From: an uncultured Arenicella sp.
GTDB taxonomy: Bacteria > Pseudomonadota > Gammaproteobacteria > Arenicellales > Arenicellaceae
Direction of reading: 5' to 3'
NCBI GenBank assembly: GCA_938045295.1
Contig: CALINO010000001.1
Span: 1 to 64,000 of the forward strand
Length of the DNA stretch: 64,000 nucleotides
The position numbers and the translations under genes are program-made. Positions 21,394 through 34,158 of the stretch are shown one piece after another; the stretch's first letter is position 1; the number at the start of each line of letters is the position of its first letter. The notes beneath the pieces are model-generated. The model was not told the DNA's origin, ran no database searches, and was given only the letters and a program-made list of their open reading frames with translations.

Positions 21394-22359
21394 CTATTCA
21401 AATATTCGATCCAAGGGGCTTTGAGTGCCAGCGTAATGTTGGCCGATAACGTGCGTGTATATTTGCGTTGTCTTCACATCCGTATGCCCAAGCAGTTCTT
21501 GCACCGTTCTAATGTCAGTGCCCGACTCTAATAAATGCGTGGCAAAGGAATGACGAAAGGTGTGACACGTTACGCGCTTATTAAGCTTGGCCGATAAAGT
21601 GGCTCGTTTTACCGCTTTTCTTATCACCGTATGGTGCAAATGAAAACGGCATAACTCCCCACTCACAGAATGCTTACTAATGGTGGTTGACGGAAACAAA
21701 AACATCCACGCCGGTGTTTTATAAGCAAACGGATACTTCCGTCCCAAGGCCATAGGCATGTAAGGGCCAATCCTTTTTTGATTGTCCAAACGCTGCACAG
21801 CCAGCGCCACCTGAATTTGCTGTTTCAGTTCTGGCTTTAATTGCTGACTCAACAAACTGACCCTATCTTTACCGCCTTTGCCCGATCGAACCGTGACACT
21901 GTTTTTGTCAAAATCGATATCTTGAACACGTAAACGCAAAGCCTCAGACACCCTTAAACCACTGCCGTACATTATTTGCACAATCAACTTATGAATACCA
22001 CTGAGCTCATTAATCACAACACTGACTTCATTAACACTGAGCACCGTAGGTAATTTCCGCGGTTTCGTTGAACGTTGAAAATTTAAGTTTTCAAGCGGCA
22101 ATTCTAAAAACTTATTGTACAAAAAGCCTATTGCATTCAAAGCAATACTTTGAGTATTCGCCGAGACCGCCCGCTCATTAGCCAAATAATCTAAAAAAGC
22201 AATCACCTCGTCTCGACCCATCTCTTTCGGGTGCCGCTTCTTATGAAAATTGATATAAAAACGAATCCAATACAAATAACTCTTTTCAGTTTTTAGCGCA
22301 TACCCTCGTAAACGCATCGTCCTGCGAATAGACTCCAAAAACGGGCTCCTTGCATACAT
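21394..22359 (-). CDS. intI: Integron integrase IntI (tyrosine recombinase)
   Basis: Tyr-recombinase motifs plus IntI-specific insert (YPFAYKTPAWMFLFPSTTISKHSVSGELCRFHLHHTVIRKAVKRA) and CHTFRHSFATHLLESGTDIRTVQELLGHTDVKTTQIYTHV. Confidence 0.96.
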   Translation of the reverse strand: MYARSPFLESIRRTMRLRGYALKTEKSYLYWIRFYINFHKKRHPKEMGRDEVIAFLDYLANERAVSANTQSIALNAIGFLYNKFLELPLENLNFQRSTKPRKLPTVLSVNEVSVVINELSGIHKLIVQIMYGSGLRVSEALRLRVQDIDFDKNSVTVRSGKGGKDRVSLLSQQLKPELKQQIQVALAVQRLDNQKRIGPYMPMALGRKYPFAYKTPAWMFLFPSTTISKHSVSGELCRFHLHHTVIRKAVKRATLSAKLNKRVTCHTFRHSFATHLLESGTDIRTVQELLGHTDVKTTQIYTHVIGQHYAGTQSPLDRIFE

Positions 22360-30619: not shown

Positions 30620-31486
30620 ATGAATATAAAAATCTTTATCACCTCATGCATTTTGTTGGTGTTTTGCATGAAGCTATCGGCTGAACCGGCTGAACCGGCT
30701 GAAACACTTTCTAGCTTTGAAATACCAAATTCCAACGTTGTTACCATTGAGTCGAAAACCCTTGGTCGAGCGTACGACCTTTATATTAAAGTTCCTAGAG
30801 ACTATTTTGAGGAAGAGAACAAATCTAAAAAATACCCTGTTTTATATTTAAATGACGGCCCCCACACTTTTAAAGTTGCTGCAGGCGTGACTCATTTTTC
30901 CAACATGGATAAATCCATTATTGTTGGGATATCTTTCGCACACGGAGAGGATGGGCAATATAGTCGCGTACGCGATTTAACCCCTGACATCGACAAAAGC
31001 TGGACAAACTACATTACCGGTGGAGCACCTAGATATTTAAACTTCATTGAGCGTGAAATTTTCCCTTTTGTTGATGAACACTACCGAACCAATGTGAACA
31101 ACAGAATCCTTGCCGGTCATTCGCTCGGAGGCTCGTTTGGCGCGTGGGTATTGCTAACTAGCCCTTCTTCATTTTCAGGCTATATATTAACCAGCCCATC
31201 TTTATGGTTTAAAAACGATTTGATCTTTGAATTAGAGAATCAATACTCAAAAAACAACACGAATCTGGATGCAAAATTATTTATTGCCACTGGTGCTTTA
31301 GAGACTCCTGAAAACGGAATGAGAAATAACATGGTGGACGGGCATCAACGGTTTGTTGAGCGTTTGCGCTCTAGAAATTACAAAGGCTTGTCTATAAGTG
31401 ATGAAATAGTAGAAGGCACAGATCATTACTCAACGTTTCCGGTTGGTTTGGCGAAAGGTTTAAGGCTGTTTTATCAAGATTTGTAG
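30620..31486 (+). CDS. Alpha/beta-hydrolase esterase (putative esterase/IroE-like fold)
   Basis: Signal peptide; PVLYLNDGPHTF, RILAGHSLGGSFG nucleophile elbow. Confidence 0.82.
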   Translation: MNIKIFITSCILLVFCMKLSAEPAEPAETLSSFEIPNSNVVTIESKTLGRAYDLYIKVPRDYFEEENKSKKYPVLYLNDGPHTFKVAAGVTHFSNMDKSIIVGISFAHGEDGQYSRVRDLTPDIDKSWTNYITGGAPRYLNFIEREIFPFVDEHYRTNVNNRILAGHSLGGSFGAWVLLTSPSSFSGYILTSPSLWFKNDLIFELENQYSKNNTNLDAKLFIATGALETPENGMRNNMVDGHQRFVERLRSRNYKGLSISDEIVEGTDHYSTFPVGLAKGLRLFYQDL

Positions 31487-31572
31487 TTTTATTCTAAAAT
31501 GCCAAACAAATTGGGCAAAAGGCGGAAGAGTTGAATTAAGCTGGCATAAATTGGCTTTTATTTTCAGCACTG

Positions 31573-31683
31573 CTTGTTGTTCCAGGCCATGGGGCGGTTG
31601 GCGACATATCATTATTGGAAGAGACACAGAGGCTAGCCGTTGAAGGTGTCGCTTCTAGTAAATCACCCCAGCATGATCACTAA
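31573..31683 (+). pseudogene. 3'-terminal fragment of a second B1 metallo-beta-lactamase gene
   Basis: Reads LVVPGHGAVGDISLLEETQRLAVEGVASSKSPQHDH*, near-identical to the C-terminus encoded at 29747-29872; no upstream ORF. Confidence 0.9.
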
Positions 31684-31748
31684 TACGTTGGCTGATTAAA
31701 GCTTTATACTTTAAGAACATTTACAGTGATAATTTTATAAGGAAGTGT

Positions 31749-32711
31749 ATGCGAACAATAATTCTGTTATTAACGTCTTTTTTTAGTTTAAGTGCCTTTG
31801 CAGAAAAAATTGATGGAACACCTTTCGAGCAATATATTACCCAAAGTAAGAATGACAACCATATTACTTACTATTTGAGCGAGTCAAAAGCTGATGACGC
31901 TCCATTGCTTTTAATGATTCAAGGCTCTGGTTGTAATAGAGTTATAACTAAAAACCGTGATGGGGTTTACTCTTCAATATTTAATTTATTGAAAATAGCA
32001 AACTCTGGAAAATTTACGGTGTTGGCAGTAGAGAAGCCAAACTCTGGGTTAGTAAACGCTAAGGGGGGGAATGTTGCCCATTCTTGTTCAAAAGAATTTC
32101 ATGATAGCTTTACCGTTGAGAGCTGGGTTGAAGCGCTCAACTTAGCTATTAAAGAAACATTGTTAAAGCTAAAACGAAAGCCAAAACAAATACTGTTATT
32201 TGGCTTTTCTGAGGGCGCAGGCATTGCCTCTCAAGTTGCAGCAACTAACCATTTGGTAACTCATGTAATTACAAGTGGTGGTTCAGGTACTTCGCAAATG
32301 TTCGATTTTGTCGCCTTTGCTTATAAAAATTGCTTTGAGCGTTCAAAATGTATAGATGATGCATATTTAACGCTAGAAAATATTCTCAAAGAACCTGACA
32401 GTTCAACTAAGTTTGCTTGGGGGCACCCTTATAAAAGATGGAGTTCTTTTTTTCGATTAGACCCAGCGGAAAACTTACTAAAGTCTAATGCAAAAGTTTA
32501 TTTGGTTTTTGGTACTTCCGACACCGCAACTCCGGCCATTTCTCAAGAAATAATAGCGGCAAAATTAAAGTCAGCGGGTAGAGACATTACGATCAGAAGG
32601 CTCCCTAATGCCAGCCATAGTTTTCAGAGCTCTAGGCATCAAGGGTTTGACCAACTCGATAACGAGCATAGGCTGTCATTCAAATGGTTTTGGGATGACA
32701 TTGCTCTTTAA
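31749..32711 (+). CDS. Secreted alpha/beta hydrolase
   Basis: Signal peptide; LLLMIQGSGCNR, LFGFSEGAGIASQ elbow, ASHSF C-terminal His. Confidence 0.75.
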   Translation: MRTIILLLTSFFSLSAFAEKIDGTPFEQYITQSKNDNHITYYLSESKADDAPLLLMIQGSGCNRVITKNRDGVYSSIFNLLKIANSGKFTVLAVEKPNSGLVNAKGGNVAHSCSKEFHDSFTVESWVEALNLAIKETLLKLKRKPKQILLFGFSEGAGIASQVAATNHLVTHVITSGGSGTSQMFDFVAFAYKNCFERSKCIDDAYLTLENILKEPDSSTKFAWGHPYKRWSSFFRLDPAENLLKSNAKVYLVFGTSDTATPAISQEIIAAKLKSAGRDITIRRLPNASHSFQSSRHQGFDQLDNEHRLSFKWFWDDIAL

Positions 32712-32843
32712 GTTTTAACATTGCAGAGCAACTAGTTTCGTGACGCATGCTAAATGAAATATAGCAAGCCAATTAAACGTGCCCGTTTTAATTGTGATAG
32801 CCTCAAATAAATGTTTTAACCACCCTAAACATGGAGTTGTATT

Positions 32844-33149
32844 TTGGTAACCTGTTATCTCAATTATGTAATTGACCCATACAAGCTCAAAGAGTTTGAG
32901 CATTACGCTAAACTTTGGATACCGCTGGTTAACAAATTTGGTGGCCAGCATCATGGGTATTTTCTTCCATCAGAAGGCGTTAATAACAAAGCGTTAGCTC
33001 TGTTTTCATTTCCCAGTTTGGCGGCTTACGAAGAGTATCGAGAGAAGTCACTCTTAGACAATGACTGCATGAGCGCATTTAAATACGCTGAAGACACAAA
33101 GTGTATTTTAAGTTACGAGCGTAGTTTCTTTCGCCCTGTGTTTGAATAA
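32844..33149 (+). CDS. NIPSNAP-family protein
   Basis: VTCYLNYVIDPYKLKEFEHYAKLWIPLVNKFGGQHHGYFLP. Confidence 0.8.
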   Translation: MVTCYLNYVIDPYKLKEFEHYAKLWIPLVNKFGGQHHGYFLPSEGVNNKALALFSFPSLAAYEEYREKSLLDNDCMSAFKYAEDTKCILSYERSFFRPVFE

Positions 33150-33152
33150 ACG

Positions 33153-33227
33153 TATAAACAGGGCAGGGGTGAATCGGACTCTTATTTTCATGCCTAAACT
33201 TAATGCATGCATGTAAAAGTGTTATGT
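33153..33227 (+). repeat. Possible last attC of the array
   Basis: TATAAACAGGG...AAGTGTTATGT; R'/R''-like ends directly after NIPSNAP stop; weak symmetry. Confidence 0.4.
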
Positions 33228-33255
33228 ATGAACTAGATGTTCTAGGGCGCAATCA

Positions 33256-34158
33256 TTAATGCTCTTTGGTGGTTTTGAGTAGCTCAATAAAAACCTCGCT
33301 TGCTGGCGACATTGAGTGGTTTTTGGGCGTAAAAATGTGAACAGGCAGTTCTAGCTTCAGGTTTTCTATTGGAATTTTTTTTATTGTGCCTTCCAATAAT
33401 TCTGATTCAAAAAAAGCACTTGGTACAAAACCAAAGAAGTTCTCTCTGAGTATCATTTCTCGAATCAGTAAGGGGGCGTCAGTAAAAAGAAAGTTGCGCT
33501 TCTCGTTCAGTGTGTTAATTAACTGATGTTCAAAAAACTCAGGGAATAATGTGAGTTGTGCCTTGCCGAATACCCAAAAAGATTCTTCTAAATCACGGTT
33601 GCTGATGTTCTGTTTTTGGCTCAACGGGTGTTTGGTTGAGCAGACGGCCACCAGCTCATCGCTGTAAATGTGGTTGTGGTTTAAGTTTGCATTCACCGAA
33701 TATTGTAAGCTAGACAGCATCATGTCTATTTGGCGGGTGAGCAGTTGCTCTTGTAACTCGTTGAAATAGCCATGCACTACATTGATGAGAAGCTTGGGGT
33801 ATAAATCGCGCATTTGGCGAACCAGGTTGCCTACTATTCGATGAGAAACCGACGGGCTAATGCCAATGTTGAGTTGCCCTTTATTAATATCTTTCAGCGC
33901 TTCGATTTTTCGCAAACCTTCGGTGATGTCAAATTGGACGTTGCTTGCCAGCTCATGGAGTGAGTGCCCCAGCGAGGTTGGCACAATGCCTTCGGGGGTT
34001 CTATCAAGCAATTTTCCATCAAGCAAATTCTCAAGATTCGAAATCGCCATACTCAGTGCTGGCTGTGAGACCGAGCACTTGTGAGCGGCTTTAGAAATGC
34101 TCTTTTCCTCAACAACCGCACAAAAGAAACTGAGGTGGCGAAAATTAAAATTAAGCAT
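33256..34158 (-). CDS. LysR-family regulator
   Basis: FNFRHLSFFCAVVEEKSISKAAHKCSVSQPALSMAISNLENLL. Confidence 0.9.
   Translation of the reverse strand: MLNFNFRHLSFFCAVVEEKSISKAAHKCSVSQPALSMAISNLENLLDGKLLDRTPEGIVPTSLGHSLHELASNVQFDITEGLRKIEALKDINKGQLNIGISPSVSHRIVGNLVRQMRDLYPKLLINVVHGYFNELQEQLLTRQIDMMLSSLQYSVNANLNHNHIYSDELVAVCSTKHPLSQKQNISNRDLEESFWVFGKAQLTLFPEFFEHQLINTLNEKRNFLFTDAPLLIREMILRENFFGFVPSAFFESELLEGTIKKIPIENLKLELPVHIFTPKNHSMSPASEVFIELLKTTKEH

Follow-up and report, generated by a model that had tools for sequence, protein, structure and literature searches.

Degenerate gene fragments and fused cassettes have already been described in integron arrays. The cassette array of the Xanthomonas fuscans 4834-R integron contains a degenerate pigH fragment, and a related array holds several pigH copies (PMC3826837). 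Phylogeny ties this fragment to an array in another Xanthomonas species, and the intI gene is truncated (PMC3826837). Fused cassettes with a lost or truncated attC are thought to result from replication slippage or from illegitimate recombination at attC (PMC8876359, section 2.4.4). The locus reported here, a short 3′-terminal relic of a subclass B1 metallo-beta-lactamase gene (bla), is an ordinary remnant of this kind. Similar to the pigH fragment (PMC3826837), it is what is left of a decayed cassette gene within the array of a chromosomal integron; the two cases differ in that an intact copy of the bla gene is present in the same array, intI is intact and no donor array is known. Similar to fused cassettes (PMC8876359), the relic and the hydrolase gene that follows it adjoin, with no intact attC separating the two coding regions. 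However, both coding regions are whole in classical fusions, whereas here not even the full last quarter of the upstream gene remains, and presumptive cassette borders are used.

The window, namely, the whole stretch of 64,000 nucleotides that was analysed, belongs to the draft genome of an uncultured Arenicella sp. The coordinates of its relevant features are listed in Table 1. The two elements of a chromosomal integron, an integrase gene and an attC array, are both present. The cassettes on the plus strand come after intI on the minus strand. Integron integrases were found in 14 of the 19 genomes of the genus including the present one, that is, in 13 of the 18 other species, and the type of attC seen at the two best sites recurs in the arrays of sister species.

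Table 1 Features of the integron region, with positions in the window
Feature	Position	Strand	Evidence or remark
Integron integrase gene intI	21394..22359	-	TIGR02249, 414 bits (cut-off 265)
attC, genus-type	23332..23412	+	78.9 bits; one of the 18 training sequences of the model
attC, genus-type	23980..24057	+	72.2 bits; likewise a training sequence
Degenerate attC-like site before intact bla	28999..29110	+	11.2 bits, not significant
Intact subclass B1 metallo-beta-lactamase gene (252 aa)	29114..29872	+	NF033088, motifs
Segment of intact bla and 3′ flank matched by the relic	29747..29887	+	BLASTN
Putative esterase gene, directly upstream of relic	30620..31486	+	PF00756
bla relic, probably the 3′ end of another allele of a subclass B1 metallo-beta-lactamase gene	31564..31714	+	Repeat, BLASTN, nhmmer
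Relic: clean core	31573..31679	+	
Relic: stop codon TAA	31681..31683	+	
Relic: diverged tail and 3′ flank	to 31714	+	
Alpha/beta-hydrolase gene, directly downstream of relic	31749..32711	+	
Degenerate attC-like hairpin after hydrolase gene	32754..32801	+	Fold z = -3.75 for 32740-32810

The attC sites were searched with a covariance model that combined 18 sites of the genus type with a hand-written structure, since a version with an automatic structure performed poorly. The model gave no significant site in 27600-33300, and thus none next to either the relic or the intact gene. A simple scan for pairing of the R″ and R′ arms did not separate the array from the remainder of the window. The relic lies in the distal and degraded part of the array, where attC sites become harder to recognise. 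Two degenerate sites were nevertheless noted by eye. The 3′ half of the attC-like site before the intact gene, CGAGCCCGCTTTAAAGACGTTAG (29076-29098), shares 83% identity with the corresponding half of the site at 23332, and the sequence CGTGCCCGTTTTAATTGTGATAG in the hairpin after the hydrolase gene is 78% like the genus attC 3′ half. No significant model match was obtained near the relic, and this hairpin is tentatively regarded as the end of the relic-bearing unit. No attC fold was found between the esterase gene and the relic (31487-31575, z = 0.89). Given that no genus-type attC adjoins the relic or the intact gene, the cassette borders are uncertain.

Several further irregularities were observed in the array. 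A third genus-type attC in the region 24400-24620 starts at 24400 and breaks off approximately 60 bases later, interrupted by a short segment resembling a transposase, MGQTKKRHYERYTLAFKLQAVKLANHPGV (approximately 24515-24600), which is followed by a core-site-like GTTATGC. At 30590-30606 the sequence CGCTAACAAGGTTAGCT brings an R″-like and an R′-like half site nearly into fusion 14 bases before the esterase start codon, as though the interior of an attC had been deleted. A minus-strand LysR-type regulator gene faces genes for a flavodoxin-fold reductase and a short-chain dehydrogenase at 25194-27614; this unit, between attC-like sites at 25113 and 27653, is unusually large, multi-gene and mixed-strand for a cassette.

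The intact IMP/KHM-like bla gene is a more notable feature than the relic. Its product scored 248.3 bits against NF033088 (curated cut-off, 200 bits), which places it in subclass B1, and contains all zinc-ligand motifs (HFHGD, GHTKDN, GGCFVK and PGHG) as well as a signal peptide recognised by eye. The best family models were KHM/HMB (380.6 bits) and IMP (347.7 bits), both below the respective curated cut-offs of 450 and 460 bits, so the enzyme belongs to neither family by these models. IMP-14 was the closest plasmid enzyme (61% identity). The nearest relatives found were two MAG genes, L032 from Cellvibrionales and L033 from Kangiellaceae, with 74% and 73% protein identity, respectively; no genus-type attC sites were recognisable beside either. 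The KHM/HMB, IMP and SIM enzymes of subclass B1 share an integron setting with the intact gene, although theirs are plasmid-borne class 1 integrons and the present one is chromosomal.

Approximately 1.8 kb downstream of the intact gene and on the same strand, its 3′ end is repeated. Positions 31573-31679 match 29747-29853 as a direct repeat at a spacing of 1826, with 103 of 107 bases identical (96%), and the longest exact run common to both copies is 39 nt. This pair is the sole long repeat within 21000-44000. A preliminary description of the window had reported a repeat of the bla 3′ end with only a few substitutions, still readable as LVVPGHGAVGDISLLEETQRLAVEGVASSKSPQHDH* up to a stop codon and lacking the rest of the gene; the alignment bore out the repeat and the translation, and no other part of bla was found elsewhere in the window or, by protein search, in the genome. 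The extent of the repeat had been drawn too short. BLASTN stretched the match to 29747-29887 and 31573-31714 (127/142 identical, one gap, E = 5e-51), and homology continues approximately 34 nt beyond the relic stop codon, with 10 differences in 34 positions and a 1-nt insertion, through CTGATTAAAGC (local p = 0.001). On the left side, an nhmmer profile of bla relatives began its match at 31564 instead of 31573; the 9-nt extension 31564-31572 was not significant alone in pairwise tests, leaving the left end uncertain.

Other delimitations of the relic were considered and rejected. A further leftward extension at approximately 31530-31557, where AAGCTGGC... is collinear with the bla codons for ESWP, gave p = 0.40 against the intact gene and p = 0.026 against L032 among four tests. 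Two copies of TTGGCT (31552 and 31689), reminiscent of integrase core sites, would make the relic a 137-nt insert between them; this reading fails because the significant homology to the bla 3′ flank passes the second copy. The placement of the relic within a recognisable attC was discarded with neither a fold nor a model match.

The relic comprises approximately the last 36-39 codons, less than the final quarter of the gene. Of the six zinc ligands it retains a single one, the PGHG His, and the catalytic domain of subclass B1 is incomplete; the relic therefore cannot be an enzyme, and no function is predicted for it.

The four differences within the core are AAG/CAG (K/Q), GTT/GCT (V/A), CGT/AGT (R/S) and the silent GGT/GGC, given as intact gene/relic. 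At the three nonsynonymous sites (31627 in the Q codon, 31652 in the A codon and 31657 in the S codon), the letter of the relic is that of both L032 and L033, and at the R/S site it is also shared by three IMP genes. The intact gene has kept the older letter at the silent site. The changes thus polarised number three in the intact gene, all altering amino acids, and one in the relic, which is silent; the relic differs from the two relatives at 39 and 31 core positions, and the intact gene at 42 and 33. Since the intact gene changed at all three nonsynonymous sites while the relic retained the letters of the relatives, the comparison suggests, with moderate rather than strong confidence, that the relic stems from a related allele and was not copied from the intact gene as it stands today. 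This polarisation is based on three sites and two relatives, each 31-42 differences away in the core. The preliminary description had likewise favoured a related allele over a very recent copy; its conclusion stands by this route, whereas its own argument, an excess of amino-acid changes, fails because such an excess is equally to be expected of a copy in neutral decay. On these sequence comparisons, the existence of at least two versions of bla in the lineage is supported.

The differences are unevenly distributed. Their density rises abruptly after the core at 31680, from 4/107 to 10/34 (Fisher p = 1e-4; p = 0.016 against synonymous sites only). In the tail beyond the core, L032 resembles the intact gene (AACGCATCNNCTGATT), and it is the relic that departs from the others. 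One simple divergence does not account for this pattern. Any one of three causes would be sufficient: a complex mutation at this spot, tails specific to each allele, or a conversion tract with its end near 31680. The last of these belongs to a more elaborate reading, in which two complete and diverging IMP/KHM-like alleles once stood in tandem and exchanged sequence, the 96% core being a conversion tract; we regard this reading as improbable.

The relic is probably a non-functional 3′ remnant of a second B1 allele that shared a recent common ancestor with the intact gene and was left behind by a deletion. In the simplest account, a full second bla gene would formerly have been located upstream of the hydrolase gene (31749). 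Its first three quarters would have been lost, together with the attC of the esterase cassette, in an illegitimate deletion that probably began within or close to this attC, so that the tail was left fused to the hydrolase cassette. Homology past the stop codon is expected if the fragment once continued into the 3′ flank of its own gene, and the missing attC fold between the esterase gene and the relic is expected if the site was lost in the same event. Judged by the open frame of the relic and its single silent change in 107 nt, the deletion would be recent in comparison with the separation of the two alleles.

Nearly the same sequence would be predicted by a partial duplication of an ancestor of the intact gene, hence the missing 5′ part of a second gene is conjectural. 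Illegitimate recombination or template switching would have placed a copy of approximately 110-150 nt from the 3′ end of that ancestor 1.8 kb downstream, the array never having contained a complete second gene, and the three amino-acid changes of the intact gene would have followed. The proximity of the copies on one strand, the untraced 5′ three quarters in the window and the abrupt left edge, with no significant homology left of 31573, agree with such an event. Nonetheless, a neutral fragment should change at least as much as a gene under selection, yet the core counts, small as they are, are one change in the relic against three in the intact gene, and the 3′ flank past the stop codon is still in place on the fragment. 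A partial duplication is considered rather unlikely. More doubtful is the arrival of the fragment in a truncated state, as a fused cassette of bla tail and hydrolase from the integron of another organism, two bla genes never having been present in this array. Such fusions belong to a known class of cassettes (PMC8876359), and no relative of the hydrolase reached E ≤ 1e-10 among 118 other related genomes, on which account its gene is probably a recent acquisition. A local origin is simpler for a fragment that is 96% identical to the resident gene when the nearest others reach 73-74% protein identity, and no donor was found: the relic DNA gave chance matches only among plasmids, viral contigs contained no bla relative, and the related genomes examined offered none. 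An assembly artefact, with the bla allele of a strain variant joined at the wrong contig position, is conceivable in a draft genome of 92 contigs but very improbable, given that the longest exact match of 39 nt is well under a normal read length and can be spanned by ordinary reads, that no repeat is common to the bla gene and the junction towards the esterase, and that both places are on one contig with different neighbours.

The distribution of the relic was examined with one genome per species. The relic or a near copy of bla was present in none of 147 other related genomes, and an intact second bla was found neither in the present genome nor in the other related genomes examined. A DNA search of the related genomes with 30360-32850 returned a relative of the esterase gene (70%) in one sister species (G006), and otherwise short chance matches and the bla repeat itself. 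The preliminary description had envisaged an array with two bla variants, one of them lost by deletion, and hence turnover of this cassette type. Its two alleles and integron setting are retained; the full second cassette, the single deletion and the turnover go beyond the data, with no attC detectable around the relic and no other genome among those examined carrying the relic or an intact second copy. Two complete bla cassettes in the array and turnover of the cassette type are accordingly plausible but unproven. A decayed B1 metallo-beta-lactamase gene with five stop codons and 39% identity to the gene in the window was observed elsewhere (L069; G494 contig 216, 3035-3709). This second, more distant B1 gene shares its genome with the intact L033, and no genus-type attC was recognisable near it. 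As the L033 genome shows this parallel, the loss of one of two B1 genes is not peculiar to the present array.

In old cassette arrays, such relics are to be expected. The present one provides direct evidence for more than one version of a carbapenemase-type gene in one environmental lineage with an intact integrase gene. If the exchange between tandem alleles were true, the chromosomal integrons of the genus would be a setting in which these enzymes diversify prior to being mobilised.
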